Positions 19,201 to 55,905 of a stretch of DNA of 64,000 bases are shown one piece after another. The translations under genes were made by a program, and so were the position numbers. Position 1 is the stretch's first letter, and the number at the start of each line of letters is the position of its first letter. Origin of the DNA: Photorhabdus noenieputensis (GTDB lineage Bacteria > Pseudomonadota > Gammaproteobacteria > Enterobacterales > Enterobacteriaceae). The stretch is from NCBI RefSeq assembly GCF_018448935.1, contig NZ_RCWC01000019.1, positions 1 to 64,000 of the forward strand. Direction: 5' to 3'. The notes under the pieces are model-generated. The model saw only the letters and a program-made list of their open reading frames with translations. It was not told where the DNA came from and made no database searches.

Positions 19201-19202
19201 TT

Positions 19203-23854: not shown

Positions 23855-23870
23855 TTCCTAAAATATTTAA

Positions 23871-24137
<267 letters not shown>

Positions 24138-24160
24138 TTGCTAATTAAAGGGAAACAGAA

Positions 24161-32005: not shown

Positions 32006-34882
32006 TTACGCCACGGAGTTTCTGCGTGTCATTCTTCTGTAATTTTCTACTCTTCCTGTCATGACATTTTCTATGCCGGATAATATTCCAGAACAGTTAT
32101 GACAAGCCGGGAAGTCTTGATTTGTTGCACCAACGAGTCGTTGTGTGAATATGTAGGCTTGACTCAAATGACTCGATATATTTTCTCCCCTTTTAGCAAG
32201 TTCCGTGACCATATAATTTAAGGCTTGTACTTCCGCATGCAAGCCCGGAATACCCGCCATTTTCGGTAAAATGTTCTTGTTTTCCTTAATGTGTGCTTTG
32301 ATCCTTTGTTCAATCAGTGGATGTAATGCAGTGCCTGATTCTTGATACGCTTTTTGTATACCCGCAATAAATTCTCCTTCATTAGCAACACGATAGATGC
32401 CAAGATCGATATTTGGCCTCCAATGTTTGGATGTTTGAAGTGTATCGGGGTGGTACTGTTCGAAACCGGGCTTCGCTTTTTCGCTGATAAGCTGCACCCC
32501 AGGGAAGGTGTTTTTTGCACTTAAGCTACCACTCAGGTTTAAAAATTTATCTTTATAGGTATCGTGCTCTCTGTTGGTACCATGACCCATAATACCGGCA
32601 TGGGCGGCGTATCCTTTTAATTTTGCATTTGTATACTTCATATCTCTGGATTTTTTTTCTCTATCTTTTGGTTTCATAGGTTTGAGCGTTTCCTCATTTT
32701 TCTTTGTTTCTTGTAATATTTCATCGGTGCTTCTGGTGAAATATGTATATCTCTGCTCAACTCTTGGATTTTGTTTATATAAAAGTGGAGAAATATCAGG
32801 TTTGTTTTGCGGAATGGCTAGATCAAGCCAGTCCAAACTTGATAGCCCCATATTATCCGCAAGCGTAATTGGGTTATTCATCACCATACAGTAGAGATTT
32901 AAGCCATCGATAGTACCGGCCGGGTCCGCACTTAGCCATCTTCCCACCCACGGCTGATAATACCGATAGCCGTAATAGTACAGTCCGGTGGCATCCCGCT
33001 CTTTACCGGAATACCGGATCGTTTTGTAACTGGCTTCTGTCTGGTTTGTTGCAGCCCATAGCGCTGTGCCGCCAAATGGATAGTACTCTTCTTGACTGAT
33101 AATTTTCCCGTCGCTATCCAGCTCAAGTTGACTGGAACCAATAAGATTGTCGTAACTGTAACGTACCTGATTATTGTTGATATTTTCCGGTTTGCCGCTT
33201 TCCCAATGCAGAATTCGTACTTGAGCGCGACCGGCTTCACCCACGGTAATGATCTCCAACTCTTCCTTCGTGGTATCACCGTTTTGTGTTGTACGTAGTT
33301 CTAATCCTGACAGGTAAACGACTCGTCGTTGCTCAAGGATATTCTGCATTTGCTGTTCACTGACTTTTAATAGCCGCATCCCATCGTTGCCATAGCGATA
33401 CCACTCTATGTCGCTGTCACTGTCGGTGCGGTTATCCCGTTTTACCGGCGTCATCTGTTGTAGTTCACCGCGAGCATTCCAGTTTAAGTTTTGTCCCGGT
33501 AGTAATATCTCCTGATGACCGCCTGCCTGAAACAACGCATCCACTTTGGTTGGATCAATGGTCAAGGTACTCAGTACCGCACGGTTGCTGCGGTTAGAAA
33601 CAGTTATGTCTGTGGTGTAATTGTTTTGACTCGCAGGCGAGCTGTGCCGGATTTGGGTCAGGTTGCCACTACGGTCATAGGTATAAGTACGGGTGTAGCT
33701 AGTGTAAGTGTTGTTATCGGAAGGAAGTGCTGGAGAGGGGAGCTTTTGATTCTGCTGGCTGATATTCGCCATTTCGCGCCCTGTTGCGCTAATAAGCTGA
33801 TACAGGGAATCGTAGGTATAGATATTCTCTGGCATTATTTTCTGATTGCGCCAGAAGCGGGTTGCTTCTGCATCGTTACGAAGGCTGATTATGTTACCAA
33901 CCGGATCATATTCATAACGTAAGTCTTGTAAAGCCTTGCTATTGTTTGAACGACGGGTAGTGATGCCAATTAGTCGCTGAGTTTCCGGCTCGTAAGTGTA
34001 TTCGGTGATGACACCGTTACCGTGCTCTTCGCGTAGTTTTTGTCCTGCGGCTGAATAGGTTAGAGATTTGATAATCACCTGCTCACTTTGGCCTTTCACG
34101 GTCAGCCAACTCCCTTTCAATTGTCCGGCCACATCATAAGCAAGGCGCTGGATATTTCCTTTGGCATCGGTTTGCGTCAACATAGTGCCAGTGGCATCCG
34201 TTTTGCTTTCGGTGGTGTACACATCACTACTTAATCTCTTATCCCAGATCTCTTTATCATCCCCGAACCAATCCGCTTCTTGATCATCAGCCAGTAACTG
34301 ACGGGATTGTGATAAAGCCGCTCCGGTCAGGGAAAGACGATTCAGTTGGGTCACTCCTGCGGTATCGTAGTGATGCACACACTGGCCAGCAAGATTTTGG
34401 TCTTTTTCTGCCGGTGTGTTTCCAGCCCAGATGAGGCGTTCGGTGATATGGTATGCCTCTAGCTTTGGTTCTTGTTCGGTTACGGATAATAGCCGACCGG
34501 GTAGGGCGTTGTCTTCATATTGCCGGGTTTGCTTGACACCCGTTGCAGTTATAGTCAGGACAAGACGGTGTTCAATATCATGAAGAGTGACAGTATTGCC
34601 CGCATCGACACTCTCTGTACGCAAGACGTTGCCCGTTAAATCATATTGCCAGCGAAAATTGGGTTTCACCGTATGGTCTTGCTGCCAGGCGTCATACAGG
34701 CGCGGATCAATGCTTTGGTTCAGGTACCCAAGAGCATCATATTGATGACGGGTGATACGGATGTCACTATTTTCTTCTGTGGTAGTACGGTGATAACGGA
34801 TTTCACGGACATCCAGCCCTCGGTTATCGTGAACAGTGATAGTGGGAGTATGTTGATAAGTTTTGGGGGCAAAGTTATTCAT
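32006..34882 (-). CDS. TccC-type Tc toxin subunit C with deaminase-like C-terminal toxin
   Basis: 958 residues. The first 670 or so form the Rhs/YD-repeat cocoon shared with TccC1: DNRGLDVREIRYHR start, HQYDALGYLNQSIDPRLYDA, and the closing RYYQPWVGRWLSADPAG and DGLNLY motifs around 645-672, where TcC proteins self-cleave. The C-terminal 280 residues are unrelated to TccC1 and contain HAE (882-884) and PACHNC (925-930), the zinc-binding layout of cytidine-deaminase-fold toxins such as the YwqJ type. GAGG precedes the start. By gene order it resembles TccC6 of P. laumondii TT01. The TcA and TcB subunits it needs would come from elsewhere. The fold is inferred from motifs. Confidence 0.82.
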   Translation of the reverse strand: MNNFAPKTYQHTPTITVHDNRGLDVREIRYHRTTTEENSDIRITRHQYDALGYLNQSIDPRLYDAWQQDHTVKPNFRWQYDLTGNVLRTESVDAGNTVTLHDIEHRLVLTITATGVKQTRQYEDNALPGRLLSVTEQEPKLEAYHITERLIWAGNTPAEKDQNLAGQCVHHYDTAGVTQLNRLSLTGAALSQSRQLLADDQEADWFGDDKEIWDKRLSSDVYTTESKTDATGTMLTQTDAKGNIQRLAYDVAGQLKGSWLTVKGQSEQVIIKSLTYSAAGQKLREEHGNGVITEYTYEPETQRLIGITTRRSNNSKALQDLRYEYDPVGNIISLRNDAEATRFWRNQKIMPENIYTYDSLYQLISATGREMANISQQNQKLPSPALPSDNNTYTSYTRTYTYDRSGNLTQIRHSSPASQNNYTTDITVSNRSNRAVLSTLTIDPTKVDALFQAGGHQEILLPGQNLNWNARGELQQMTPVKRDNRTDSDSDIEWYRYGNDGMRLLKVSEQQMQNILEQRRVVYLSGLELRTTQNGDTTKEELEIITVGEAGRAQVRILHWESGKPENINNNQVRYSYDNLIGSSQLELDSDGKIISQEEYYPFGGTALWAATNQTEASYKTIRYSGKERDATGLYYYGYRYYQPWVGRWLSADPAGTIDGLNLYCMVMNNPITLADNMGLSSLDWLDLAIPQNKPDISPLLYKQNPRVEQRYTYFTRSTDEILQETKKNEETLKPMKPKDREKKSRDMKYTNAKLKGYAAHAGIMGHGTNREHDTYKDKFLNLSGSLSAKNTFPGVQLISEKAKPGFEQYHPDTLQTSKHWRPNIDLGIYRVANEGEFIAGIQKAYQESGTALHPLIEQRIKAHIKENKNILPKMAGIPGLHAEVQALNYMVTELAKRGENISSHLSQAYIFTQRLVGATNQDFPACHNCSGILSGIENVMTGRVENYRRMTRRNSVA

Positions 34883-34926: not shown

Positions 34927-37121
34927 TTTTTGTCTGCATCGCAGCGAGCGAATGCTAAGTTCAGCTTCTCCATAACGAGGATAATCTTTCTAATTGATAT
35001 ACCAGTGGTATGCGAGATTTCAGGAGATAAGCAGGAGTGACCTCATCCAGAAGCATATTGCTCAAAGGTGCTGCTGCAACCGGATAACAGTAACAAGTAT
35101 AGGTAGAGGAGTACAAGTATTGTAGAAAACAGTGTCAGCATCTTTTGCTGTCGATCATGGCTATTTTTTCTGTCAATAGGTGAAGTTGTCAATAAAGGAG
35201 AAGTAACCTATCCTTATTTAACATACAGTTATGTATTGGCAGAGTGTTAACGGGAAGTAAAGTTATCTGTTATAAGTGTGAGTTATTTTATTGGCTAAAG
35301 AATTTTTGATGTTCGTCCATATACGAAATTTGGTGTGGTTAGTCTGGCGTCAATAATGGCACCAGATTAATCGGATGTATCAGATTATTGTGTCAGGCAC
35401 ATATTCCAACAACAATCACTGGCTTAAATTTCATCTTGTGTATTATGGTGGAATAAAGCTATTGTGCCTGTTATGGTACCGTAAGATGCATTCTTAATTA
35501 AATTCTTAAATTCACTGATAATATTTTTCATGGAAAATGATTTTGTTGTATGCTTTAAATAAATATATGGCTTTAATTCTAATTAAATTATATGAATTAA
35601 ACTTGATAATATCTGGATTGTGTGTTTTATATTATTTTTGATGTTTTTTTACAGTGTGATTTGTCATTGAGATATTATTATGCATAAAATAAATTACCGT
35701 GATTGTTATCTGTTTTCTTTTGAATTTATTAAATAGGAAATTAATAAAAATGAGTCGTCCAGATTTTAGTTTATATGGAATTTATATTTAATCTATTACA
35801 GTGATATAAAATACCAAATTTAGTAAATAATGTAAATTATTGCATGAGTTAATATAAAGTCATGAAATGCATTATTAATTAAAACAAGGAATTAATTTGC
35901 AATCGTTATTTTTACAATGTAAATAATATTTTATTGTAATTCTTGGTGAAATTGTAAAGTAAATCAGCCAATATGGTGATTATAAATATAAATGTTATAT
36001 TTTATGGATTATTAACAGGGTAAGTATATAAATTATAGTTTTATGTTTCATTTATTTTTGATTTTGTAAAAGTAAAAACTTTTAGTTTTTTATTGGAATA
36101 TCATTATATATAATATTGATTATTGGCAATTCTTATTTTAGTTGTTATTGAAATATTTTATTCTTACCGGGAGTTATATACCCTATGGATTTCAAGATGC
36201 ATCGCGACGACAAGGGAGTGAATTCCTGGGTGCAGAGAGAACTATGTGACCGGGATGAGCGAGTGTAGCCAACAAACTTGAAAGATAACGGATATAATGG
36301 TTGATAAAGAAATATTAACATGAATCATTAGTAATATGAGTAAAGTAATTATATGAAAGCAAATTTCTATCGTGTGTATAGAAATATGTTTTTTTATTTT
36401 AATTTTTTAGTGGGTTTTTATGTTGATAAAAAAATTGATGAGTATTAGTAATATCAGAAATTGCTTGTTTTTAGGTATTGTAAATATCGATAATATAAAT
36501 TTAGATCATCAATCTGTGTCTCTTATTATATTGTGAATAATTCTGAAAATTTCTCATCATTGAATATAAATAGACCATATAATGTTTTGCCTGAAATAGT
36601 TTACTTGCTGAAAATAATAAGGCTATTTTTTTGAATTTAATGGTTTTATTTCGGGATTGTAAACTTTATCAATTAAAAAAATTGACGGAAATAAATAGGT
36701 GGCATTATTGATTACCATGCTAATTATATAAATATCGTGGAGATCTTAGTATTCTATTTGTTTTTAAAAGGTTGAATGTTGATTATATATTCATATTTTA
36801 TGAATAATTCCCAATTATTATTGGGTTATTGATGCATAAATAGTGATAACTAAACTCGTTGATAAGGTTGTTGAATATAAGTTGGTTATTATATTAGCCT
36901 TTGTTAAATCATAGTTTTTATATTTTTATTTTTTATTTACAAGGAATTAACAAAACTAAATGTTAGTTTTCACAAAATTGTGACTTGTTTTTATTTGGTT
37001 AAGGAGTTGTATTCAACATGTCGTTATTTTTTCTTCGGGTTTTATTTGCCGAAGGTTGAAACAACGTGCCTATTATTTTAAGGGAGTACATACCCTTTTC
37101 TTTAATTTTTGGAGATGACTT
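34927..37121. other. 2.2 kb AT-rich spacer between tccC and the LuxE-like gene
   Basis: No convincing gene on either strand; only short frames with poor starts. It holds the tccC promoter region at the left, ERIC copy 5 at 36177-36296, and the upstream region of the LuxE/LuxC-like operon at the right. The AT content is higher than in the genes on either side. Confidence 0.6.
36177..36296 (+). repeat. ERIC repeat copy 5, internally deleted
   Basis: About 120 bp. It matches the other copies but lacks 7 bases near the right end: CCAACAAACTTGAAAG replaces CCAACAAAGAGGCAACTTGAAAG. It also carries several substitutions (CGACGACAAG, GAATTCCTGG). Confidence 0.9.
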
Positions 37122-38252
37122 TTGACCTCTCTTGCTTATGTTGACGCCCTTTGTGCGCTTGATCATCCTTATCGGGCCGATAGTGTTTGCGACCAACTAT
37201 TTGATGCTGCCATGCGTGAGTTAACGCTGTACCACTGTGAAAATACTCCCGGTTATTCTCTATGGTTGAAGGCTAATGGTCTGGAAATAGAACGACTAGA
37301 GAAGCTGGATGATTGGTCGCGTTTGCCGCCTATTTTCGCTAATTATTTTAAACGCCAGTTGTTGCTCAGTACCACTGGTAGGAATGCATTGGAGTTGACC
37401 TCCTCTGGGACAACCGGCCAAAAGAGCCGTATGCGTTACGATGCACGTAGTATGGGTGCCGCTCAATATATGGTTGAGCGGATTTTCGAGTATTACGGTT
37501 GGAATACGCCACAGCAGCCTTGCAATTACTTGCTGCTAAGCTATGAACCTGCCGGCACGATTACTTTGGGAACCGCGTATACCGATCAATATCTGTGTCA
37601 GTATGCACCGGTAAATCAAGCTTATTATGCACTGCGCCACAATGGAAAAAGCAATGAGTTTGATCCTTTTGGCGTGATCCGATCCTTACAAGAGTTTGCA
37701 GCACAAGGGCTGCCAGTGCGCATCTTGGGCTTTCCGGCATTCTTGTGGTTCACATTGGAACGGATGCAGGAAATGGGGTTACCGCCGGTACAGTTGCATC
37801 CTGAGTCACTGGTATTTTTAGGTGGAGGTTGGAAAACCCAAGCTGATAAAGCTATTCCAAAATCCTTGCTGTATCGGCGTTTGGGGGAACAACTGGGTAT
37901 TCCTGACGAGCGGTGCCGGGATGGTTACGGCTCGGTTGAACATCCGGTGCCTTATGTTGAGTGCCGAAATCACCATTTTCATGTGCCGAGTTATGCCCGA
38001 ACCTATATCCGCGATACGGCTAACATGGCGGTTCAACCCTATGGTAAGCCAGGTTTTCTGCATCTGGTATCACCCTACATCACTTCCAGCCCGGCACACA
38101 GTATTGTGGTGAGCGATTTAGCGGTGCTGCATCCGGCCGCTGAATGTGGTTGTGAATTAGCTACCGATTGGTTTGAGTTACTGGGTCGTGCTGGTACCAG
38201 TAAAAGCCGCAGTTGTGCGATAGCCGCTTCTGAGTTGATAAAGGAGTCCTGA
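37122..38252 (+). CDS. LuxE-like acyl-protein synthetase
   Basis: 376 residues, LuxE family (PF04443, related to PaaK adenylating enzymes). The nucleotide-binding loop LTSSGTTGQKSR is at about 92-103. DGYGSVEHPVPYVEC follows, and near the C-terminus a cysteine (Cys365, in SRSCAIAASEL) matches the acyl-accepting cysteine of LuxE (near 364 in bacterial luciferase systems). LuxE activates a fatty acid with ATP and passes it to LuxC. It starts with TTG (37122-37124), 7 bases after GGAG. It is the first gene of a tight four-gene operon with no luxA/B or luxD, and it is not the canonical luminescence operon. The substrate is unknown. Confidence 0.82.
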   Translation: MTSLAYVDALCALDHPYRADSVCDQLFDAAMRELTLYHCENTPGYSLWLKANGLEIERLEKLDDWSRLPPIFANYFKRQLLLSTTGRNALELTSSGTTGQKSRMRYDARSMGAAQYMVERIFEYYGWNTPQQPCNYLLLSYEPAGTITLGTAYTDQYLCQYAPVNQAYYALRHNGKSNEFDPFGVIRSLQEFAAQGLPVRILGFPAFLWFTLERMQEMGLPPVQLHPESLVFLGGGWKTQADKAIPKSLLYRRLGEQLGIPDERCRDGYGSVEHPVPYVECRNHHFHVPSYARTYIRDTANMAVQPYGKPGFLHLVSPYITSSPAHSIVVSDLAVLHPAAECGCELATDWFELLGRAGTSKSRSCAIAASELIKES

Positions 38253-38253
38253 A

Positions 38254-40668
38254 ATGTATTTAGTGAATGGTAAGGTTATCTCTGACTTGGAACCCGCTAC
38301 CGTATTGGCGGAACTGAAAAGTAATTTAGCTGAGACGTTGGCTTGTCCCCCAAGTGTACAACAGATATTGGCGTGTGCTGAGCGCTTTGTTGATGATCTC
38401 GATACGGTTGCCGCCAGGCTTGAGCTGGATACAGCCGCCATCGCCGCGTTACGTCACTTCTGTCATCGCGACTCTTTAGAGGCAAAATTGCGGCACGAAT
38501 TGGGAGAGCAACCCTTTTCTCTGCGTCGTTTTGACTATACACAACCCCGTTTTGAAACTTGGCAGCCGTTGGGATTAGTGGTGCATATTACGCCAGCCAA
38601 CGCGCCTTTGCTGCCATTTATGGCCGCGTTAGAGAGCTTGTTAGTGGGTAATGTCAACTGGTTACGCCCTAGTAGCAGTGATCGCGGGCTTAATGCGCGG
38701 ATACTGGCTGAATTCCTGCGTTATGACCAGAGCGGCACGTTGGCACCTTATATCTCTGTATTGCCTTTGCCGTCTGATCAATTATCAGAATTATTGTCAT
38801 GTGCTGATGCCGTATCCGCCTGGGGTAGCAATAGCGCCCTGACCGCTATTCGTAGCCAATTACGGCCCGGTTGCCGTTGGATAGATTGGGGACATCGTAT
38901 CAGTTTTGCTTATTTGGACCCGATGGTTGCCAGTGATGCTGATTACGATGCATTAGCTGATGATGTTTGCCGTTTTGACCAACAAGCGTGTTCCAGTCCA
39001 CAGTGTTTGTTGGTAGATAGCACTGACGAGACCGTCTTACGACAGGTGGTTAGTACAGTGGCCGCCGCGCTGGAACGGCGTGCGTCAGTATGGCCAGCCT
39101 TACAGCCAGACATACAGGAAGCGGCGGAAATTAGCAGCCAGATGGCATTCTTACAGTTGGATCACACTTTTGCTGATCTCCGCGGCTCAGTAGAAAAGGG
39201 CAATGGTTGGCGAGTAGCCTGGATACAGCGTCAAGAACTTGCTCCATCACCTCTGTTCCGTACTTTACAAGTCCGTCCGGCACCACGTGCACAATTGGTC
39301 GAGATTTTGTTGCCGTGGCGCACCTATTTGCAAAGTTGTGCTTTGATAGCTAAAGAAAAAGAGCTGCCGGTGTTGAGTCGTCAGCTGTTAGCCGCCGGTG
39401 TTAGCCGGATATGTCAGGCAGGTACGATGCATGATGGCTATGAGGGTGAACCCCATGATGGTGTTTATGCATTGACTCGGTTGGCGCGACGTGTCTCCAT
39501 CAGCTTAAAACCTGAGCAACTACCGGGCCATGTCGCATTAGATAAATGGTCGGCCAATCCGCCGGAACTGGCAGGGATTCCAGTAATGGATAAAGCAAAG
39601 TTTCAGAACGGCGGCGTGACGGCAAAAGCACAGGTGTTTTTCCGTAGCGGCGGCAGTAGCGGCGAGCCAAAGCTGGCGGGTTTCAGCCATCGAGATTATC
39701 ACCGTCAAATGCAAGCCGCGGCGGATGGTTTGTTCGCTGCTGGTCTGGACCCATCCCAAGACCGGGTAATGAATCTGTTTTATGGCAGTAACTTGTATGG
39801 CGGTTTGATGAGTTTCTTCACTGTGCTGGATAAATTATCCGTGCCACATTATCCGATGGGCGGCCCGATAGATGATGATTTTAGCCAAATCAGGCACTTT
39901 ATTGTCACTCAGGGAATCAATACGCTGGCGGGAATGTCAAGCACGATACACCGATTGTTTGAATGTGAAGAGGCTGCGTTGCGCGCCTATGGTGGGATAC
40001 GCAAAATTTTTACTGGCGGTGAGCATATTGGCGAAGAGCGGTGTCGGTTTCTGTCCAGTTTTGGTGTACAGATAATTCGCTCGGCGATTTACGGTTCCGT
40101 GGATGCCGGTCCGTTAGGTCATGCTTGTGCTTGTTGCCAAGAGGGAGAGTTCCATCTGTTATCTGATATTCAATGGCTGGAAATCTTGGCTCTTGATAGT
40201 GATCAGCCTGTTCCGACAGGGGAAAGCGGTCGATTGGTGTTTACCTCTTTGGCAAGGGAAGGGCAGGTGGTCCAGCGTTATGATGTAGGTGACTTAGGTT
40301 ATTGGCTGCCTGATCTCTGCGACTGCGGATTACCAACGCCGCGGTTTAAACTGGGAGGCCGTCATGGCGTGTTGATAAGGGTGGGTTCTATTTTTCTGAA
40401 CCCAACCGAATTATCAGCCGGGCTGCCGTTTCCGGTGCAGTGGTTGGTAGGGAACAACTCCAGTGGTTGTGATTATATCCATATATTAGCCGACGGGGAT
40501 GCTGAGCAGGTACGTATGCATTTGTTGCAACATAGGATGCTGAATCAGGTTGTCAGTGGTGGATTGCTGCAATTGGAAGTTATCCCGACACCTGTTGGAC
40601 AGTTCCATCGTCACCCGCAAAGCGGCAAAACGCCGCTGGTGCTGGATAGCCGATTCCGAGACCAATAA
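38254..40668 (+). CDS. LuxC-like acyl reductase fused to a PaaK-like adenylating domain
   Basis: 804 residues in two parts. Residues 1 to about 400 are LuxC-like (PF05893): PLGLVVHITPANAPLLPFMAALESLLVGN is the NAD(P)-binding region and the catalytic cysteine is Cys246 in QQACSSPQ. Residues about 420-804 form an AMP-forming ligase of PaaK/LuxE type with RSGGSSGEP (464-472), FTGGEHIGEE and YGSVDAGPLGHACACC. A single chain could therefore activate a carboxylic acid and reduce it to an aldehyde. The start has AGGAG 8 bases upstream and follows the LuxE-like stop by one base. Ordinary LuxC is about half this length. The substrate cannot be told from the sequence. Confidence 0.8.
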   Translation: MYLVNGKVISDLEPATVLAELKSNLAETLACPPSVQQILACAERFVDDLDTVAARLELDTAAIAALRHFCHRDSLEAKLRHELGEQPFSLRRFDYTQPRFETWQPLGLVVHITPANAPLLPFMAALESLLVGNVNWLRPSSSDRGLNARILAEFLRYDQSGTLAPYISVLPLPSDQLSELLSCADAVSAWGSNSALTAIRSQLRPGCRWIDWGHRISFAYLDPMVASDADYDALADDVCRFDQQACSSPQCLLVDSTDETVLRQVVSTVAAALERRASVWPALQPDIQEAAEISSQMAFLQLDHTFADLRGSVEKGNGWRVAWIQRQELAPSPLFRTLQVRPAPRAQLVEILLPWRTYLQSCALIAKEKELPVLSRQLLAAGVSRICQAGTMHDGYEGEPHDGVYALTRLARRVSISLKPEQLPGHVALDKWSANPPELAGIPVMDKAKFQNGGVTAKAQVFFRSGGSSGEPKLAGFSHRDYHRQMQAAADGLFAAGLDPSQDRVMNLFYGSNLYGGLMSFFTVLDKLSVPHYPMGGPIDDDFSQIRHFIVTQGINTLAGMSSTIHRLFECEEAALRAYGGIRKIFTGGEHIGEERCRFLSSFGVQIIRSAIYGSVDAGPLGHACACCQEGEFHLLSDIQWLEILALDSDQPVPTGESGRLVFTSLAREGQVVQRYDVGDLGYWLPDLCDCGLPTPRFKLGGRHGVLIRVGSIFLNPTELSAGLPFPVQWLVGNNSSGCDYIHILADGDAEQVRMHLLQHRMLNQVVSGGLLQLEVIPTPVGQFHRHPQSGKTPLVLDSRFRDQ

Positions 40669-40688
40669 TACGACTTTTTGGGTAAATC

Positions 40689-41960
40689 ATGACACTATCA
40701 TTACACGATCTGGTTGAATACGCCCGCAATCATGCGCCTTTTTTTAAAGATCTTTATCGTGATCTGCCTCGATCCGGTTGGGCGCTAACTGATCTGCCAT
40801 TGATCAATCCTGATGACTATTGGCAGCAATCGCAATCGCTGGAAAACTGGCCGGTATTAACCGGTCCTGTTAACGGCGGTCATGTTTTTAAAACTGGTGG
40901 TTCTACCAGTGATGGTCGATTGTCGGTATTCAGTTGTAGCGAATGGCGTGCTTTTGTACGCGCATTTGGTCAAGGGCTTGCGCAGCAATTACAGCCCGGT
41001 GACCGCGTTGCTAATCTGTTTGTGGCTGGTGATTTGTATACCAGTTTATTGTTTATTCACGGTGCCTTGTCCTATTCACCAGTGCCGGTAGTGGAGTATC
41101 CGTTTACCTGGTCAGTTGATGATCGGGCGCTGGCCGATGCGATTGTCAGCTTGGGGATTAATGTTCTGGCTGGGGTGACGGCACAGCTATTACGTTTTGC
41201 CAGTACCTTGCAGCAGTGCGGCCAGTTTATGCCCGGCATTGATCGTCTGTTGTATGGCGGAGAGAGCCTGTTTCCAGAGCAATTGACACTATTGAGTCAG
41301 GTATTTCCTAATGCGCGTATTGGTTCAGTTGGTTGTGCCAGCGTTGATGCGGGTCTCATTGGCGCTGCGTCTCCCGATTGTTGCTACGGTGAACATCGGG
41401 TTTTTGATACGGATACTATTGTTGAAATTATTGACGAATCCAATGGTCAGCCGATTACGATGCCCGGCCAAAATGGCCTATTGGTTGTGACCAACTTGCA
41501 ACGGCGTCTGATGCCGGTTATCCGCTATCCTACCGGTGACATGGCCTGTTGGTGTGAAGCGCCAGGGCAGCCGCGTCGCAAATTCGCTTTGCAGGGGCGA
41601 GCGGGCAGCGCTCACCGAGTGCGAGTTTTTTCACTGTCCATTTTTCCTGACCATATTGCGCGTTTACTGCAACAGCAAGAGGGCATACTGGCTTGGCAGT
41701 TATTGCTGAGCCGTCAAGGTGGCATGGATAAGATAGAACTCTTGTTAGCGGGCGATTCATCACTGGCGTCATCGACAACATCAGTGCATCAGGCATTGTT
41801 GGCGGCACAACCCGCTATGGCAAAGTTATGTGATCAGGGATTTTTGCATGTGGAAGTCACTTACTGCACTTTGGAAAATATGGTTACTCATCCACGTTCC
41901 GGTAAATTGATGCGGGTGGTTGATCATCGCGGTTATGGTGCCGAAGAGAAGGCAGCATGA
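40689..41960 (+). CDS. PaaK-like AMP-forming acyl ligase
   Basis: 423 residues, phenylacetate-CoA ligase-like. The loop KTGGSTSDG (68-76) binds ATP; YGGESLFPEQ and GSVGCASVDAGLIG follow, then YPTGDMACW. It is a clear paralogue of the C-terminal half of the preceding fusion protein (same motifs in the same order), so one probably arose from the other. It would form an acyl-adenylate or thioester. It overlaps the following acetyltransferase gene by 4 bases (ATGA). Confidence 0.78.
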   Translation: MTLSLHDLVEYARNHAPFFKDLYRDLPRSGWALTDLPLINPDDYWQQSQSLENWPVLTGPVNGGHVFKTGGSTSDGRLSVFSCSEWRAFVRAFGQGLAQQLQPGDRVANLFVAGDLYTSLLFIHGALSYSPVPVVEYPFTWSVDDRALADAIVSLGINVLAGVTAQLLRFASTLQQCGQFMPGIDRLLYGGESLFPEQLTLLSQVFPNARIGSVGCASVDAGLIGAASPDCCYGEHRVFDTDTIVEIIDESNGQPITMPGQNGLLVVTNLQRRLMPVIRYPTGDMACWCEAPGQPRRKFALQGRAGSAHRVRVFSLSIFPDHIARLLQQQEGILAWQLLLSRQGGMDKIELLLAGDSSLASSTTSVHQALLAAQPAMAKLCDQGFLHVEVTYCTLENMVTHPRSGKLMRVVDHRGYGAEEKAA

Positions 41961-42880
41961 GCATGAATCCAGGAATACCATTAGTTCGATTATTCCGGGA
42001 AGAGGATTCTACCGGTATTAGTGCGTTATTTCGGGTTGTTTACGGCGAAGATTATGTTTACCCGGAAGTCTATTTACCTACCATGCTTGGCCGCTATAAC
42101 GCGGCAAAACAGTGGTATTCCGCTGTTGCGGTACAGGATGGACACGTGTTGGGGCATGCGGCACTGTGGCGGGATGAACACTGTTCATTAAGCGCTGAAC
42201 TGGCGTTGATCGCAGTACATCCACAAGCGCGTGGGCAGGGTATCGCTACCGCGCTAGGGCGATATTTGTGTGATCAGGCCAAGAAAATAGGGTTAAGCAT
42301 CCTCACGATTAAACAGGTGTCGTCGCATAACCATAGTCAGCGTCTGGCCCAAAATCTGGGGTTTCACACCACGGGGTTACTGCCGGACTATGTAACATCA
42401 CCGTTTGATCAGGCGCGCCCGGAAAGCATAGTACTGGGTTGTTTACCTTTACAAAGCTGGCCATTTCCAGAGGTACACTGGCCCTCCGGTTGGCAAAGGT
42501 GGTTGACATCGGTGACTCAAGTGTTTGGTCAAGAGCCTCTGCAACCGGAGGCGTTGGCTGATTCGGATATCCGTATAACCAATCATGGATGTCGGTTGGA
42601 AGTGTGGATAGAAAAGCAGACAACCGAGCGGGTAAAAGAGGTGGCGGAGTTACCGGCACACAAGCTGATATATGTGAGATTGCCGGTAGGGGAAGGGACG
42701 CTCCAGGCAATGGAAATTTTGCAGCAAGCAGGATTTGCCTGTACCGGGTTTGTGCCCGGGCATCATCACCATTGGGAAGCTTTGCTGGTTCGGGGACATA
42801 GTAGGAAAGAGTTAGCCTTAAATTGTCAGTTTGCTCGTCGTTTGCACCAGCAAAGCATGTTTGCTTGTGCAAGCGCATAG
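41957..42880 (+). CDS. GNAT-family N-acetyltransferase
   Basis: 307 residues. The N-terminal half is a GNAT domain: VRLFREEDSTGISALFRVVYG, AELALIAVHPQ, then the acetyl-CoA-binding ARGQGIATALG (about 92-102) and LAQNLGFH. The C-terminal half (about 160-307) looks like a second, degenerate acyltransferase-like fold with a late LQQAGFACTG segment. It is coupled to the ligase by an ATGA overlap, so it belongs to the operon. It may modify the amine partner of the pathway's acyl product, but this is inference. An inverted repeat follows at 42950-42979. Confidence 0.75.
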   Translation: MSMNPGIPLVRLFREEDSTGISALFRVVYGEDYVYPEVYLPTMLGRYNAAKQWYSAVAVQDGHVLGHAALWRDEHCSLSAELALIAVHPQARGQGIATALGRYLCDQAKKIGLSILTIKQVSSHNHSQRLAQNLGFHTTGLLPDYVTSPFDQARPESIVLGCLPLQSWPFPEVHWPSGWQRWLTSVTQVFGQEPLQPEALADSDIRITNHGCRLEVWIEKQTTERVKEVAELPAHKLIYVRLPVGEGTLQAMEILQQAGFACTGFVPGHHHHWEALLVRGHSRKELALNCQFARRLHQQSMFACASA

Positions 42881-43291: not shown

Positions 43292-44959
43292 ATGGCAATA
43301 GGGTATTTCCTGCTCGTTGGTGATAAAACAACCTGTGGTGGTCAGATTATTACCGGTGACCACACCATGACATTTAATGGGCGAGCGACCGCTCGTGAAG
43401 GGGATAAGGTTACCTGTGGCAAACATCCCGGTACTTACATCATTGCCGGTGGTGTATCCGATGTGTTTGACATGGGGCGCAAGCTGGCTGGCACATTGGA
43501 TAGTGTGAGTACTTGCCCCTGTCGCGCTCGGTTTATCAATTCGGAGATGGACAGCTATGAGAAGCAAGATAAGACTGCTGACCGGGTTGTCGCTCCCACG
43601 AATATGGCGCAACAGCATTTCTCTTCTCCGGTAAAGGATGTGGGAAGCCCGCCTGCAACACAGGCACCTCCGCCGCCGATACCGGTGTTTACGAAGTCCT
43701 GCCAGCGGGGTAAAGGGTGTACTGACGCTGGAACTGAGCCTGAATCGGCAAATAACTTTGGCAGAATGGCGATATATCAGGTGCCGTCATCTCCTGCGCC
43801 AGCCACGGCACAAAAGCCTGAACCGCCTCCGCAAGGTGAGAAACAGCCGCCAGAACCGGATAAGCCGCGGGATAAAAAATTACCGTGGTATAAGCGGTGG
43901 TTTCGTAGTGGAAAAGATAATGCCGAAGCGGCTGCTACCGCCGTGGCCGCCACTGCCCGCAGCGCGGTAGCGGAAGGGGAAACGCTGGTAATGCGTTACA
44001 TTGGTGGCGGCGCTATCAGTGCTGGACGTTGGCTGGCGGCACCGAATCCGGTAACGGTTGGATTAATGGGGCTGTTTTATTCACCGTCGTTGAATCAGGG
44101 GGAGGAGGATTACTTAGATCCGTATCGCCTGAGACAGATAGCGGAACAGTATGGAAAAGCACCAACTCGTGTACGTTTTCGCTGGATCAGAGATGAAAAA
44201 AGCGGCAGGATGACGGTTCAGGGGTATCACGTCAGCCCGGAAGGCGGTTTGGATAAAGTGCCGGTTCGCATGATGACGCTGAATCGGACCACCGGTAATT
44301 ACGAGTTCTGGGAACCGGGAGAAACCCGGCCGACGATTTTATGGACGCCGAATGAACAGGAATTCAAGGCTCCAGCCCATACCGGGAATGAAGAACAGCC
44401 GTTTATTCCGTCGCAAATAACCGTGTTGCCGATCCCGGATAAAGTGGGCAGCGATATTGAATCGTTGCCAATGCCGGAAGAGAAGGATTTCCGCGATTAT
44501 ATTCTGGTATTCCCCATTCCGAATATGCCGCCGGTGTATGTGTATCTGAGTAAACCGCCGGTGAAACCGCTGGAAGTGGGAGAATATCGTGATCTGGCTG
44601 GACGCAGCTATAAGGATGGGATGGATATTGATCATATTCCGTCTAAGACGGCATTAGAACAATATTTGCTTAAAAAATATCAAGGTAAAATTGTTGAGAA
44701 AAAGATCAAAGCTATCTTAGATAAAGGAGTAGCTATAGCTATTCCGAAACGAATCCACCAAAAATACAGCGAAACCTATGGTGGGCGGAATACTCCAGAG
44801 AAAAAGATAAAAGATGCGATGGATCTGAAAGCTGCTGTAGACAGTAATTTTGACGCCCAGATTCCAGGCTTACGGGAAGAGGGTTATACAGATGAGCAAC
44901 TGAATAAGGCACACGAAGAGTTACATCGTCTTAACAAAATGCAAGGGTGGTATGAATAA
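43292..44959 (+). CDS. PAAR-tipped T6SS effector with pyocin-S-like region and probable nuclease C-terminus
   Basis: 555 residues. The N-terminal PAAR domain (about 1-85; [38 protein letters not shown]) sharpens the VgrG spike. A Pro-rich linker (about 125-200) and a pyocin-S-like region (about 225-430) follow. The C-terminal 110 residues contain [14 protein letters not shown] (Asp447-His448) and SETYGGRN (496-500), the pattern of HNH-like nuclease tips in polymorphic toxins. GGAGAAG precedes the start. Immunity-type genes follow with a one-base overlap (TAATG), so toxin and immunity are co-expressed. The nuclease activity is inferred. Confidence 0.82.
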
Positions 44960-45426
44960 TGACGGATATTATTGCAATTATTAATAGTTTGGGGAAAACC
45001 GCAGATATGTTAGTTGAAAATAAACTTATTCCAGCGGGAAAGTTTGAGTTTACTTTCGAAGGCTCTTCCAGATTTAGTGTTGAACCAGAGGCGGGTCTTA
45101 CTTTAGTTTTCGATGCTATATCAAAAGTGTTGATTTCTGTTCAATTCACATTAATCAACACTTTTGATGATACTGGTACATATAGTGGTGATATGCCTGC
45201 TCCATTCCTTCACCAAATGGATAAGGTTACAGTCAGAGCATTTATGGGAGAACCCGATTCCAGTAGTGGACCGGAGAAAATTCCGGTAATTGGCTTAATA
45301 GGCGGATTTGATGCCTATACTCGTAAACTAAATGATCAGTATCCAAATACAGAAATTCGCTTCCTTTATCAAACTGATCTTCGTGTGGATGCACTGTTAT
45401 TTGAACAGTCGGTAAATAATGATTGA
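44959..45426 (+). CDS. Cognate immunity protein candidate, DUF6392-type, copy 1
   Basis: 155 residues. Its first ATG overlaps the effector stop (TAATG), so it is the most likely partner of the encoded nuclease tip. It shares the opening (INSLGKTADMLVENKLIP) and overall plan of the DUF6392 proteins downstream but differs in most other positions, including the C-terminus. No signal peptide or membrane segment; cytosolic, as needed for immunity to a nuclease. Function inferred from position. Confidence 0.65.
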   Translation: MTDIIAIINSLGKTADMLVENKLIPAGKFEFTFEGSSRFSVEPEAGLTLVFDAISKVLISVQFTLINTFDDTGTYSGDMPAPFLHQMDKVTVRAFMGEPDSSSGPEKIPVIGLIGGFDAYTRKLNDQYPNTEIRFLYQTDLRVDALLFEQSVNND

Positions 45427-45508
45427 TGTTCTTGCAATCATAAATAGTTTAGGACAGACAACCGATATGTTGGTTGAAAAACAATTTATCCCAGATAATA
45501 GATCATGA
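45419..45508 (+). pseudogene. Truncated DUF6392-type immunity gene fragment
   Basis: 29 codons (MIDVLAIINSLGQTTDMLVEK...) end at TGA 45506-45508. It resembles the first 29 residues of copy 1, which it overlaps by 8 bases. The rest of the gene is missing and the next copy starts 10 bases later. It is a relic of duplication and deletion in the array. Confidence 0.7.
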
Positions 45509-45517
45509 GTATGAATA

Positions 45518-45976
45518 ATGACAGTCAACATAGATGCACTCATAAATAGCTTAGGAAAATCTTATCAGGAAATTTTTGATGACGGGCTAATTCCTTATAG
45601 AAGTAAACCAAGCGGTCCCCTTGGGGTACTTAGTATTGGCACTGATATGGTGAAAGAGGGGATTTTTTTATCGTTTGAACAGAGTAGTAAAATATTAAAC
45701 GAAATTACTTTAAGGTTGCTTAGGGACGATAAAGCTTCATTTATATTCCCAAATGAATTGCCATCACCATTGAAGCACTCTATGGATAGGGTATGGGTTA
45801 AAGAAAATTTAGGTGATCCGATTAAGTCAATACCACCAAGGCAAATTTTAAGAAACCAATTTGGTTAGAAAGATTTATATCGTTTCACAGACGAAATCAG
45901 TATGCAGATTTCTTATGACATGATGGAACGAGTAAAATCGGTAACGTTTTTACCTACCTCAGAAGTGCGTTGGTAA
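45518..45976 (+). pseudogene. DUF6392-type immunity gene broken by an in-frame TAG
   Basis: The frame runs 116 codons to TAG 45866-45868 (QFG-stop), then continues in frame as KDLYRFTDEISMQISYD... to TAA 45974-45976. The close copy at 47236-47694 has TGG (Trp) at the stop position, so one base change inactivated the gene. If read through, the product would be 152 residues, the same as that copy. Confidence 0.85.
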
Positions 45977-46084
45977 TCAACAATAGATGGGAGATTATTT
46001 TTAAAGGCCAGTTCATTTGCGGGTAGTTTGAAAAATAAAGTCGTAGATGAATTGGCTGAATCAAGAATAGAGGTTATATGAATA

Positions 46085-46552
46085 ATGACTATCAACGTTG
46101 AAGCGTTAATTAATAGCTTGGGGAAAACCTATCAGGAAATTTTTGATGAAGGGCTAATCCCTTATAAAACCAAACCAACAGGATACCCTGGAGATCCAGA
46201 TATTACTCTGAATATGGCTAAAGAGGGTATGCATTTAGCGTTTAAAAGAGATGGTAAGATTTTATTTGCTGTAGAGCTTTTTCTGCTTGATCAGAAGAGA
46301 CCTTTATACCAATTCCCTAATGAATTACCTTCTCCCTTGAAGCCTTTAATGACTAGGGGATGGGTTCATGAGCAGTTTGGTAAGCCAGAAAAGGCTCTTC
46401 CGCCGAGAAAATTTCTCAAGAAAGATGTTGGTTGGACGGAACTGTATACGCTACTGGATTTTCGGATACCAACCAGTATGCAGATTGATTACGATCTATT
46501 GGAACAAGTGGAGTCAATTGCGTTCTTATCCACATCAGAATTACGTTGGTAA
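46085..46552 (+). CDS. DUF6392-type immunity-like protein, copy 4
   Basis: 155 residues, beginning [31 protein letters not shown] and ending [20 protein letters not shown]. It belongs to the same family as its neighbours. The spacer before it (GAGGTTATATGAATAATG) is nearly repeated before each later copy, so the unit of duplication includes the ribosome site. Probably a cytosolic immunity protein of an alternative or former effector tip. Confidence 0.65.
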
Positions 46553-46661
46553 TCAACAATAGGGTGGGCGGTTATTTTTAAAAGCTAATTCATTTTTGAA
46601 TGGTTTGAAAAGTTAAATCTCCAATGAATTAGCTGAACCAATAACAGAGGTTATATAAGTA

Positions 46662-47126
46662 ATGACTATCAACGTTGAAGCTCTAATTAATCGTTTAGGT
46701 AAAACTTATCAGGAAATTTTTAATGAGGGACTAATTCCTTATAAAACTAAGCCATCAGGTTTCTCTGGTTGTGAAGTGGTATCCTTGGATATGGTAAGAG
46801 AAGGTGCTTTTTTGTCTTTTTATAGAAAAGATAGAAAATTAAAGGAGATTACATTAACTTTAATTAACAATAAACCTGCTTATTTATTCCCTAGTGAGTT
46901 GCCATCACCATTAATTCCTAAAATGTCACGTAAATGGATTCATGAACAGTTTGGTGAGCCTGAGAAATCTCATCCTCCCGAGATGGTTATGAAGCGCCAG
47001 TTTGGTTGGACAGAATTATATACATTACTTGATTTTCGTATTCCTACAAGTATGCAGATTTCTTATGATCTTACTGAACAGGTTGAATCTTTGACTTTCT
47101 TACCCACTTCAGAAGTTCGTTGGTAA
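46662..47126 (+). CDS. DUF6392-type immunity-like protein, copy 5
   Basis: 154 residues, close to copy 4 ([28 protein letters not shown], then a C-terminal [18 protein letters not shown]). The central strand region differs most between copies (about 45-80), where recognition of the toxin would be expected. Same direction and spacing as the rest of the array. Confidence 0.65.
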
Positions 47127-47235
47127 TCAACATGTAGATGAGAGGCTCTTTCTGAAAGCCAATTCATTTTCGGGTAGTTTGAAAAATAAAGTCGTAGGTG
47201 AATTGGCTAAATCAAGAGTGGAGGTGATATAAATA

Positions 47236-47694
47236 ATGACTATCAACGTTGAAGCCCTAATTAATAGTTTGGGGAAAACCTATCAGGAAATCTTCGATGA
47301 AGGGCTAATTCCTTATAGAAGTAAGCCAAGCGGTCCCCTTGGGGTACTTAATATTGGTATTGATATGGTAAAAGAGGGAGTTTTTTTATCGTTTGAACGG
47401 AGTAGTAAAACATTAAACGAAATTACTTTAAGGTTGCTTAGGGACGATAAAGCTTCATTTATATTCCCAAATGAATTGCCATCACCATTGAAGCATTCTA
47501 TGGATAGGGAATGGATTAAAAAAAACTTAGGTAGTCCGATTAAATCAATACCGCCAAGGCAAATTTTGAAAAGGCAGTTTGGTTGGAAAGATTTATATCG
47601 TTTTACAGACGAAATCAGTATGCAGATCTCTTATGATTTACGTGAGCAGGTTAACTCAGTGACTTTTTTACCTACCTCAGAAGTACGTTGGTAA
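47236..47694 (+). CDS. DUF6392-type immunity-like protein, copy 6
   Basis: 152 residues, the intact sister of the broken copy at 45518-45976: the two share SKPSGPLGVL and [20 protein letters not shown]. It has TGG where the broken copy has TAG. It is the last gene of the array; a 437-base spacer with no gene separates it from tccA. Confidence 0.65.
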   Translation: MTINVEALINSLGKTYQEIFDEGLIPYRSKPSGPLGVLNIGIDMVKEGVFLSFERSSKTLNEITLRLLRDDKASFIFPNELPSPLKHSMDREWIKKNLGSPIKSIPPRQILKRQFGWKDLYRFTDEISMQISYDLREQVNSVTFLPTSEVRW

Positions 47695-48131: not shown

Positions 48132-51032
48132 ATGAATCAACTCGCCAGTCCCCTGATTTCCCGCACCGAAGAGATCCACAACTTGCCCGGTAAATTGACC
48201 GATCTTGGTTATACCTCAGTGTTTGATGTGGTACGTATGCCACGTGAGCGTTTTATTCGTGAGCATCGTGCTGATCTGGGGCGCAGTGCTGAAAAAATGT
48301 ATGACCTGGCGGTGGGCTATGCTCATCAGGTATTACACCATTTTCGCCGTAATTCTCTTAGTGAAGCGGTTCAGTTTAGCTTGAGAAGCCCGTTCTCTGT
48401 GTCAGGTCCCGATTACGCCAATCAGTTTCTTGATGCAGACACTGGCTGGAAAGATAAAGCACCTAGTGGATCACCAGAAGCCAACGATGCGCCGGTAGCT
48501 TATCTGACTCATATTTATCAATTGGCCCTTGATCAGGAAAAGAGTGGTGCTAGTGCCATTATGAATACGCTGGTGGAGCGCCGACCTGATATCGGGGCTT
48601 TGTTGATTAATGATAAAGCGATCAATGAGGTGATACCGCAATTACAGTTGGTCAATGAAATTCTGTCCAAAGCCATTCAGAAGAAACTGAGTTTGGCTGA
48701 TCTGGAAGCGGTAAACGCCAAACTCTCCACCACCCGTTACCCGAATAATTTGCCATATCATTATGGTCACCAGCAGATTCAGACGGCTCAGTCGGTATTA
48801 GGTACCACGTTGCAAGATATCACTTTGCCACAGACGCTGGATCTGCCGCAAAACTTCTGGGCAACAGCAGCAGGAAAACTGAGCGACGCGACTGCCGGTG
48901 CTTTGACTCGACTGCAAATCATGGCGAGTCAGTTTTCGCCAGAGCAGCAAAAAATCATGGTGGAAACCGTCGGTCAGGATTTCTATCAGCTAAATTATGG
49001 TGACAGTTTGCTGACGGTGAACAGTTTCAGCGACATGACCATACTGACTGATCGAACAAGTTTGACTGTACCCCAGGTAGAACTGATGTTGTGTTCAACG
49101 GTTGGGGGTTCTACGGTGGTTAAGTCTGATAATGTGAGTTCTAGTGACACGACAGCGACGCCATTTGCTTACGGCGCTCGCTTTATTCATGCCGGTAAAC
49201 CGGAGGCGATTACCCTGAGTCGCAGTGGAAAAGAGGCTCATTATGCTCTGACAGTTAACAATCTGACCGATGACAAGTTAGACCGTATTAACCGCATTGT
49301 GCGCCTGCAAAAATGGCTGAATCTGCCCTATGAGGATATTGACCTGTTGGTGACTTCTGCTATGGATGCGGAAGCAGGAAATACTGCTCTGTCGATGAAC
49401 GACAATACGTTGCGTATGTTGGGCGTGTTCAAACATTATCAAGCGAAGTACGGTGTTAGCGCCAAACAATTTGCTGGCTGGCTGCGCGTGGTAACCCCGT
49501 TTGCCATTACACCGGCAACGCCGTTTTTAGACCAAGTGTTTAACTCCGTCGGCACTTTTGATACACCGTTTGTGATAGATAATCAGGATTTTGTCTATAC
49601 ATTAACCACCGGGGGAGATGGGGCGCGTGTTAAGCATATCAGTACGGCACTGGGCCTCAATCATCGTCAGTTCCTGTTATTGGCGGATAATATTGCCCGT
49701 CAACAGGGAAATGTCACACAAAGTACACTCAACTGTAATCTGTTTGTGGTGTCAGCTTTCTACCGTCTGGCTAATTTGGCGCGCACATTGAAAATAAGCC
49801 CAGAAGCTTTCTGTGCTTTGGCTGATCGATTAGATGCAGGTACAGGCATCGTCTGGCAGCAATTGGCAGGAAAACCGACAATCACGGTACCGCAAAAAGA
49901 TTCCCCGCTGGTGGCGGATATTCTGAGTTTGCTGCAAGCGCTAAGTGCGATTGCGCAATGGCAACAACAGCACGATTTACCCGTTGAAACCTTACTTTTA
50001 CTGTTGAGTAGTGGTTCTACCTTCACCGCTCAAGGCACTGACGATCAATTGAATTTTATCCGTCAGGTGTGGCAGAACTTGGGCAGTGCATTGGTGGATG
50101 CAACATTATTATCCCGTAGTGGTGCGCCATTAGTTGATACCAACGGTCACGCTATTGACTGGTTTGCTCTGCTCTCGGCAGGTAATAGCCCGCTTATCGA
50201 TAAGGTTGGTCTGGTGACCGATGCTGGCATAGAAAGTGTTATAGCAACGGTGGTCAATACACAAAGCTTATCTGATGAAGATAAGAAGCGGGCAATCACT
50301 ACTCTGACGAATACGCTGAATCAAGCGCAGCAAACTCAGCAAGGTGTGGCCGTCAGTCTGTTGGCGCAAACTTTGAATGTGAGTCAGTCACTGCCTGCGT
50401 TGTTGTTACGCTGGAGTGGGCAAACAACCTATCAGTGGCTGAGTGCGACTTGGGCATTGAAGGATACTGTTAAGACTGCGGCTGATATTCCCGCTGACTA
50501 TTTGCGTCAATTACGTGAAGTGGTACGCCGTTCCTTGTTAACCCAACAATTCACATTGAGTCCAGTGATGGTGCAAACCTTGTTGGACTATCCAGCCTAT
50601 TTTGGCGCTTCCGTAGAAGTAGTGACTGATATCAGTTTGTGGATGCTCTATACCTTAAGCCGTTACAGCGATCTACTGCTCCAGGTGGGTAAAGCCGGTG
50701 GTGGATCGGAGGATGATGTACTGGCCTACTTACGCACAGCTAATACTGCTGCATCGTTGAGTCAGGCGGATGCTGCTCAAACTTTGGCAACACTATTGGG
50801 CTGGGAAGCTAACGAGTTGCAAGCCGCTTGGGCAGTATTGGGTGGAATTGCCAAAACTACACCGCAACTGGATACGCTGCTGCGTCTGCAACAGGCACAG
50901 AGCCAGACTGGCCTTGGCGTTACACAGCAACAGCAAGGCTACGCTCTGAGCCGTGATAATGATTATCCCCTTTGGCAAAGCACCGGTCAGGCGCTGGTGG
51001 CTGGCGTATCCCATGTCAAGGGTAGTCACTGA
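48132..51032 (+). CDS. tccA: TccA, Tc toxin TcA-type subunit, N-terminal part
   Basis: 966 residues. It starts MNQLASPLISRTEEIHNLPG, with LTDLGYTSVFDVVRMPRERFI, the VRP1/SpvA-related N-terminal domain of Tc toxins, followed by a helical shell. It closely resembles TccA of P. luminescens from memory of the family. TccA and TccB together make the pentameric TcA-type pore that delivers the TcC toxin into insect gut cells. AGGAG is 6 bases before the start. tccB follows after 96 bases. Confidence 0.92.
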   Translation: MNQLASPLISRTEEIHNLPGKLTDLGYTSVFDVVRMPRERFIREHRADLGRSAEKMYDLAVGYAHQVLHHFRRNSLSEAVQFSLRSPFSVSGPDYANQFLDADTGWKDKAPSGSPEANDAPVAYLTHIYQLALDQEKSGASAIMNTLVERRPDIGALLINDKAINEVIPQLQLVNEILSKAIQKKLSLADLEAVNAKLSTTRYPNNLPYHYGHQQIQTAQSVLGTTLQDITLPQTLDLPQNFWATAAGKLSDATAGALTRLQIMASQFSPEQQKIMVETVGQDFYQLNYGDSLLTVNSFSDMTILTDRTSLTVPQVELMLCSTVGGSTVVKSDNVSSSDTTATPFAYGARFIHAGKPEAITLSRSGKEAHYALTVNNLTDDKLDRINRIVRLQKWLNLPYEDIDLLVTSAMDAEAGNTALSMNDNTLRMLGVFKHYQAKYGVSAKQFAGWLRVVTPFAITPATPFLDQVFNSVGTFDTPFVIDNQDFVYTLTTGGDGARVKHISTALGLNHRQFLLLADNIARQQGNVTQSTLNCNLFVVSAFYRLANLARTLKISPEAFCALADRLDAGTGIVWQQLAGKPTITVPQKDSPLVADILSLLQALSAIAQWQQQHDLPVETLLLLLSSGSTFTAQGTDDQLNFIRQVWQNLGSALVDATLLSRSGAPLVDTNGHAIDWFALLSAGNSPLIDKVGLVTDAGIESVIATVVNTQSLSDEDKKRAITTLTNTLNQAQQTQQGVAVSLLAQTLNVSQSLPALLLRWSGQTTYQWLSATWALKDTVKTAADIPADYLRQLREVVRRSLLTQQFTLSPVMVQTLLDYPAYFGASVEVVTDISLWMLYTLSRYSDLLLQVGKAGGGSEDDVLAYLRTANTAASLSQADAAQTLATLLGWEANELQAAWAVLGGIAKTTPQLDTLLRLQQAQSQTGLGVTQQQQGYALSRDNDYPLWQSTGQALVAGVSHVKGSH

Positions 51033-51128
51033 GCATAGCAGAAGCTCACTATCTGAGTGGATTTGATTTTTCCGTATGGCCCAATGAGGCTATTTCTAAA
51101 CCGCCATTTAAGTAAGGCAGGTGTAATT

Positions 51129-55859: not shown

Positions 55860-55878
55860 ATTAACTTTTAACTAAGAC

Positions 55879-55905
55879 TTCCCACTCTGGTTGCCAGAGT
55901 GGGAA
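55879..55905 (+). terminator. Strong hairpin between tccB and tccC1
   Basis: TTCCCACTCTGG (55879-55890) and CCAGAGTGGGAA (55894-55905) form a perfect 12-bp stem with a 3-base loop, 19 bases after the tccB stop. No T-run follows (AGGATCTG), so it may protect the upstream mRNA or only attenuate transcription into tccC1. Confidence 0.7.

Follow-up and report, generated by a model that had tools for sequence, protein, structure and literature searches.

What might a bacterium make with homologs of the bioluminescence enzymes LuxE and LuxC, encoded together without a luciferase? The question is raised by four genes of Photorhabdus noenieputensis (assembly GCF_018448935.1; genome of 5.36 Mb), which lie in a 64,000-nucleotide (nt) stretch of contig NZ_RCWC01000019.1, hereafter the window. 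A first-pass annotation described them as a tightly packed LuxE-like/LuxC-ligase/PaaK-like/GNAT operon that could activate and reduce a carboxylic acid to an aldehyde, suggested fatty and aromatic acids as substrates to try, and knew of no described product. Sequence comparison indicates that the four genes are almost certainly leupABCD, the leupeptin biosynthetic operon; the finding is real and already known. Leupeptin is Ac-Leu-Leu-argininal, a small-molecule inhibitor of serine and cysteine proteases that doubles as a commercial laboratory reagent.

Identification of the operon as leupABCD

Four open reading frames (ORFs) on the + strand were confirmed at the positions listed in Table 1, with intergenic spacing of 1 base, 20 bases, and then a 4-base overlap. 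These coordinates, together with the domain matches, bear out the tight packing and the proposed gene types. luxA, luxB, and luxD are absent from the four genes, and the complete luxCDABE operon of the same genome sits on contig C38. The window operon is therefore a second, independent LuxE/LuxC pair and, as had been argued, not the luminescence operon.

According to the available passages of PMC8283571, leupABCD and an adjacent transporter gene were defined in Klebsiella michiganensis CAV1374 at 315,353-321,183, with primers for the Klebsiella oxytoca complex. Two of these primers, leupA_f and leupB_r, match K. michiganensis DSM 25444 (locus L075) with 0 mismatches. The leupA_f site (8924-8944, +) falls within the LuxE-like ORF at 8863-9999 and the leupB_r site (10139-10158, -) within the LuxC-ligase ORF at 10001-12409, giving an amplicon of 1,235 bp, the size reported in the same passages. 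The extent of the CAV1374 cluster likewise fits the L075 layout of a major facilitator superfamily (MFS) gene followed by LuxE, LuxC-ligase, PaaK, and GNAT genes (ORFs 7576-14699). Because the window has the same layout of the four genes, these exact primer matches identify its LuxE-like and LuxC-ligase genes as leupA and leupB, and we regard the orthology to leupAB as settled at the sequence level. The four window proteins are 44 to 68% identical to those of L075, 79 to 89% identical to those of Xenorhabdus bovienii (locus L019), and 82 to 90% identical to those of Photorhabdus khanii NC19 (locus L017).

Literature searches under the enzyme names listed no paper on this gene set. The chemistry of a tripeptide aldehyde, along with the work of Li et al. 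2020, pointed to leupeptin, and a search under that name led to PMC11480411. In the passages available from this source, the K. oxytoca leup operon makes leupeptin and the leup biosynthetic gene cluster of Photorhabdus luminescens makes a leupeptin-derived pyrazinone, with the same leupeptin derivatives described in X. bovienii. The operons of Photorhabdus and Xenorhabdus are further associated there with a homoarginine form of the pyrazinone that K. oxytoca does not make, and K. oxytoca with a lysine analogue of leupeptin. Excerpts of two other papers agree: leupeptin biosynthesis in X. bovienii SS-2004 is ascribed to separate AMP-dependent ligases plus a reductase, citing Li et al. 2020 (10.1002/anie.202005506; cited in PMC11212599), and a P. 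khanii region is assigned to leupeptin with high similarity to leupeptin A-D (PMC12542766). Primers and literature thus place the genes in a known cluster, and the view that they have no described product does not stand.

Several points weigh against this identification. The leupC and leupD genes were matched by position, following the gene order of L075, rather than by primers. No MFS gene adjoins the window operon, unlike the Klebsiella operon and 47 of the 86 loci compared. In addition, the amino acids that the enzymes use are not fixed by sequence alone, and leupeptin is ascribed to the window operon through the products reported for its relatives.

Domain composition and catalytic residues

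The leupA product matches the LuxE family PF04443 (78 bits), and the leupB product matches LuxC PF05893 over residues 31-413 (about 498-501 bits). Against the NCBIfam long-chain equivalogs of LuxE and LuxC, the same proteins score 52 and 63 bits, respectively, versus cut-offs of 550 and 750. Residues 465-664 of the leupB product give a PaaK-type AMP-binding match of 29.7 bits, marginally below the Pfam cut-off of 29.9. For the leupC product, also of PaaK type, both Pfam matches and the top NCBIfam match (90 bits) lie below cut-off. These AMP-binding/PaaK assignments are backed by profile searches against the PDB (1e-15 to 1e-22). The leupD product matches GNAT with 54 bits.

Both nucleophiles named in the first-pass annotation are conserved. 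The alignment of a 26-row LuxE profile to LuxE of PDB entry 7xc6 (7xc6_E) reaches the C-terminal Cys of that protein, which is matched by Cys365 of the leupA product and by the corresponding Cys of the genome's own LuxE; Cys365 is invariant in 26/26 rows and kept in at least 97% of the 86 rows of a larger alignment. Cys246 of the leupB product (motif QQACSS) lines up with the Cys of the QQAC motif in 7xc6_A and also aligns with LuxC from the luxCDABE operon of this genome; it is invariant in 32/32 fusion rows and in 78/78 rows of the larger alignment. In profile searches, the match of the second half of the 32-row fusion profile to PaaK structures extends to the region of the C-terminal Lys, and the leupC ligase aligns with PaaK end to end. 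Both ligases share an invariant loop Gly, an invariant Asp (680 in leupB; 284 in leupC), and an invariant Lys (792; 406), aligned with 2y27, 2y4o, and 4r1l. We take these to be the ANL motifs, namely, the nucleotide-binding loop, the conserved Asp, and the C-terminal Lys. Given the invariance of Cys365, Cys246, Lys792, Lys406, Asp680, and Asp284, both the reductase and the sites of adenylation appear competent by sequence. Non-alignment of the cysteines or ligase motifs with LuxC, LuxE, and PaaK structures, which had been named as grounds for rejecting the annotation, was not seen. The larger alignments comprise 78 LuxC-ligase rows and 83 PaaK rows, window included, after exclusion of 8/85 and 3/85 matches, respectively, that cross stop codons.

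Structure models were used for fold confirmation only. The predicted GNAT structure (mean predicted local distance difference test score [pLDDT], 90.9) has N-acetyltransferases as its top matches, over ~170 columns. Among them are enzymes named for phosphinothricin, an amino-acid analogue, which fits a role in leucine acetylation. The predicted fusion structure (mean pLDDT, 82.5; predicted template modeling score, 0.66) matches PaaK ligases and LuxC 7xc6_A; no domain arrangement was drawn from it.

Proposed route to leupeptin and competing readings

Leupeptin requires one N-acetylation, two carboxylate activations for amide bonds, and a third activation coupled to a reduction. The operon encodes a single GNAT, three adenylating domains, and a single LuxC reductase, and this agreement between enzyme inventory and chemical need supports the leupABCD reading. 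In the route that we propose, LeupD would use acetyl-CoA to acetylate leucine. Two carrier-free PaaK-type enzymes, LeupC and the LeupB ligase half, would then between them form the Leu-Leu and Leu-Arg amide bonds. LeupA would adenylate the C-terminal carboxylate of Ac-Leu-Leu-Arg and hand it over, bound as a thioester, from Cys365 to Cys246 in the LuxC half of LeupB, where reduction with NAD(P)H would release the aldehyde in the manner of the fatty acid reductase LuxC-LuxE. LeupA and the LuxC half are assigned to the reduction because of their homology to LuxC-LuxE, with both nucleophiles aligned; the allocation of steps to genes as a whole is one that we infer. Photorhabdus would also be expected to form a homoarginine congener, along with pyrazinones as breakdown products. 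The earlier idea that an acid is first activated and then reduced to an aldehyde matches leupeptin chemistry. The acyltransferase, too, appears to take part, although more likely at the start, through N-acetylation of leucine, than in the finishing role first given to it.

Several known systems help to place this route. The fatty acid reductase of luxCDABE relays a thioester from LuxE to LuxC and reduces it to the aldehyde. The leup operon differs in lacking luxA, luxB, and luxD, in having LuxC fused to a ligase, and in its proposed substrate, a peptide acid instead of a fatty acid. GriC/GriD of grixazone biosynthesis, likened here by description rather than by sequence, are separate adenylating and reducing proteins that convert a carboxylate to an aldehyde on an aromatic substrate. 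Carboxylic acid reductases and nonribosomal peptide synthetases work with a linked carrier protein; Pfam and NCBIfam searches of the four leup proteins, with matches taken at E up to 1, showed no phosphopantetheine carrier domain.

Relaxed ligases could make another N-acyl tripeptide aldehyde the main product of the same type of pathway, for instance one ending in homoarginal or lysinal or carrying another acyl group or aliphatic residue. The homoarginine pyrazinone of Photorhabdus and Xenorhabdus and the lysine analogue of K. oxytoca (passages of PMC11480411) point in that direction, as does the fact that the GNAT (44% identity) and the LuxC half (50%) are the parts least conserved between the window and L075. 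The closer identity to L019, from a species with described leupeptin biosynthesis (strain SS-2004), speaks for leupeptin instead, and we consider a different main aldehyde rather unlikely. A pathway that reduces fatty or aromatic acids, like LuxC-LuxE or GriC/GriD, and then acylates the product appears very improbable. LuxC/LuxE homology, the aromatic-acid ligases among the solved PaaK-type relatives, and the two-protein precedent of GriC/GriD would favor it; against it stand the orthology of the cassette to leupAB and the equivalog scores below cut-off. The fatty or aromatic substrates suggested at first are probably wrong, since the available passages of PMC11480411 point to N-acyl peptides with Arg, Lys, or homoarginine as the final residue.

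There is also little to recommend the idea that the window holds a decayed, non-functional leup operon, and we judge it highly unlikely. The operon has no adjoining exporter gene, and decay does occur elsewhere, in Salmonella plasmids with an MFS remnant or a split GNAT. Yet the four ORFs are intact with their catalytic residues kept, other Photorhabdus and Xenorhabdus loci likewise lack an adjacent MFS gene, and the ratio of nonsynonymous to synonymous substitution rates (dN/dS) is 0.05-0.16 for all four genes when the window is compared with eight Photorhabdus loci. The four genes are under purifying selection; in a ninth comparison, with Chromobacterium, dS was saturated.

Two other readings were set aside. 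An aryl-acid reductase, drawn from GriC/GriD, was dropped once the leup match was found. Flagellin glycan modification, in which LuxC/LuxE-like genes also occur, was rejected, with no glycan genes among the annotated neighbors of loci L008, L009, and L011.

Distribution of the cassette and its exporter

A scan of genome contigs yielded 431 relatives of the fusion, of which the best 80 were fetched as loci. The first-pass annotation had proposed looking for the same gene order in other genomes, and it was found in 80/80: every fetched locus has matches to the four genes, with order and strand conserved, and with partial or split matches to LuxE in L059 and L082 and to GNAT in L027. Together with the low dN/dS, this arrangement is beyond chance. 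These best 80 of 431 come from Photorhabdus, Xenorhabdus, Chromobacterium, Pseudomonas (36 loci), Rugamonas, Iodobacter, Parachitinimonas, K. michiganensis, Morganella, Erwinia, Pantoea, Burkholderia multivorans, and two enterobacterial metagenome-assembled genomes (MAGs). Two Salmonella plasmids (L008 and L009) also carry the cassette. The nearest named relative of the fusion is in Photorhabdus caribbeanensis (97% identity). Across sampled genomes, with the window genome counted each time, the full-length fusion occurs in 12/12 of the genus, 3/394 of the order, and 2/398 of the phylum, with scoring in the order and phylum samples limited to two candidates per genome; weaker, partial LuxC/PaaK-domain matches occur in 85/394 order genomes in all. 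Outside Photorhabdus and Xenorhabdus, the distribution is patchy.

Three Streptomyces-type plasmid records (L010-L012) carry LuxE and LuxC-ligase genes with PaaK ahead of them; in L011, the annotated record, MFS and GNAT genes lie in between. In none of these records does the window GNAT find a match at 1e-8.

The Salmonella plasmids show signs of decay, at 13461-13697 in L008 and at 13461-13697 and 18752-19626 in L009. In both, only a 79-residue MFS remnant lies upstream of LuxE. On plasmid CP053580, the GNAT match is split into two overlapping pieces and no GNAT is annotated. Plasmids CP053407.1 and NC_019126.1 hold fragments that correspond to residues 1-167 of the LuxE-like protein, with the rest of the cassette absent from their match lists, and appear to be further cassette remnants. 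A megablast search found no close copy of the Salmonella cassette in Escherichia coli genomes.

Adjacency of the MFS gene was scored by tblastn across the 86 loci, window included. The gene, which belongs to the MFS_1 family in one Pseudomonas copy, lies directly upstream of LuxE in the 47 loci mentioned above, and the two Salmonella plasmids keep its remnant. Near full-length copies beside L022, L024, L027, and L060 were seen by tblastn and missed by longest-ORF calling (43/85). No adjacent match was found in 37/86 loci, namely, the window, the three Streptomyces-type records, L052, L054, MAG L049, and the other Photorhabdus and Xenorhabdus loci, including the 7.9-kb contig of X. bovienii L019. 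Since the gene is also missing beside these insect-pathogen operons, among them that of the producer species X. bovienii, we do not take an adjacent transporter as a defining feature of a leup operon. In a quick LuxC-ligase tree, which again includes the stop-crossing rows, truncated at their first stop, Photorhabdus forms a group with MFS-bearing Chromobacterium and Burkholderia (support 88) that is separate from Xenorhabdus. This placement suggests that the insect pathogens probably lost the MFS gene, or left it behind, on two occasions.

Locus organization and other LuxE/LuxC genes

Table 1 Features of the leup operon in the window
Feature	Position (nt)	Strand	Remarks
leupA ortholog: LuxE-like adenylating acyltransferase	37122..38252	+	376 aa; TTG start; nucleophile Cys365 codon at 38214-38216
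leupB ortholog: LuxC-type reductase fused to PaaK-type adenylating domain	38254..40668	+	804 aa
LuxC domain of leupB	38344..39492	+	PF05893; nucleophile Cys246 codon at 38989-38991
PaaK-type ligase half of leupB	39541..40665	+	~residues 430-804, boundary approximate; Asp680 and Lys792 invariant
leupC ortholog (by position): stand-alone PaaK-type ligase	40689..41960	+	423 aa; Asp284 and Lys406 invariant
leupD ortholog (by position): GNAT N-acetyltransferase with extra C-terminal half	41957..42880	+	307 aa

The operon has a GC content of ~50%, and that of the preceding stretch drops to 23%. This stretch, at 35000-37100 directly before leupA, spans ~2 kb without an ORF of 80 residues and has a strong G-over-C skew. 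Downstream, at 43292-47694, a protein with PAAR and S-type pyocin domains is followed by five related small ORFs, two of which were tested and match DUF6392, with the remaining ones joined by family clustering; the region looks like an effector plus a tandem array of immunity-like genes. Further out, a 958-residue ORF (32006-34882) shows Rhs/Tc-type repeats by eye, and large ORFs occupy 48132-59124, the first with a VRP1 domain. These surroundings are probably a toxin-complex island.

A third LuxE-like gene of the genome (392 residues, 131 bits) lies on contig C2 within 14000-27000 (locus L110). It neighbors genes for a class V aminotransferase, a ketoacyl synthase, and a MaoC-like dehydratase and probably belongs to a separate pathway.

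A LuxE/LuxC pair in a candidate ribosomal peptide cluster

The window LuxE also matches plasmid NZ_CP109155.1 of Streptomyces europaeiscabiei NBC 01735 (L105), where identity is 42% for LuxE and 34% for LuxC over the matched part. Here (553-9253), LuxE and LuxC follow genes for a metallo-β-lactamase-fold protein and an MNIO protein (PF05114, 88 bits), with a divergent YcaO-nitroreductase. Within this region, 80 bases downstream of luxC, a 53-residue ORF (9092-9253), annotated only as hypothetical, contains four direct 27-nt repeats (67 to 100% alike) coding for (D/E)FPFR; no relatives besides itself were found in the plasmid collection. We tentatively suggest, as a possibility short of an even chance, that the LuxE/LuxC pair is a wider module for converting peptide acids to aldehydes that has also been recruited to ribosomally synthesized and post-translationally modified peptides (RiPPs), with L105 directing protease inhibitors of an FPF-argininal type. 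The putative RiPP precursor would be cleaved after Arg and the Arg-ended cores reduced to argininal. If this is true, the L105 product would be a ribosomal counterpart of leupeptin, with the same reductase pair making aldehydes from ribosomal peptides. This candidate cluster would be more novel than the window operon.

On a plasmid of Streptomyces sp. NBC_01343 (L108, 4993-8420), a 721-residue PaaK-family ligase, 26% identical to the LeupB ligase half, adjoins an MFS gene. A methylaspartate mutase and a cobalamin-dependent protein are encoded nearby on the opposite strand, and the locus is possibly another carrier-free ligase pathway.

Implications for leup-type cassettes

With the identification of the window operon as leupABCD, a claimed orphan pathway is removed: the luciferase-free set of LuxE, LuxC, PaaK, and GNAT genes has a known product. 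Cassettes of this type are portable and extend well beyond the genera named in the literature passages available to us, although Li et al. 2020 may already list some of them.

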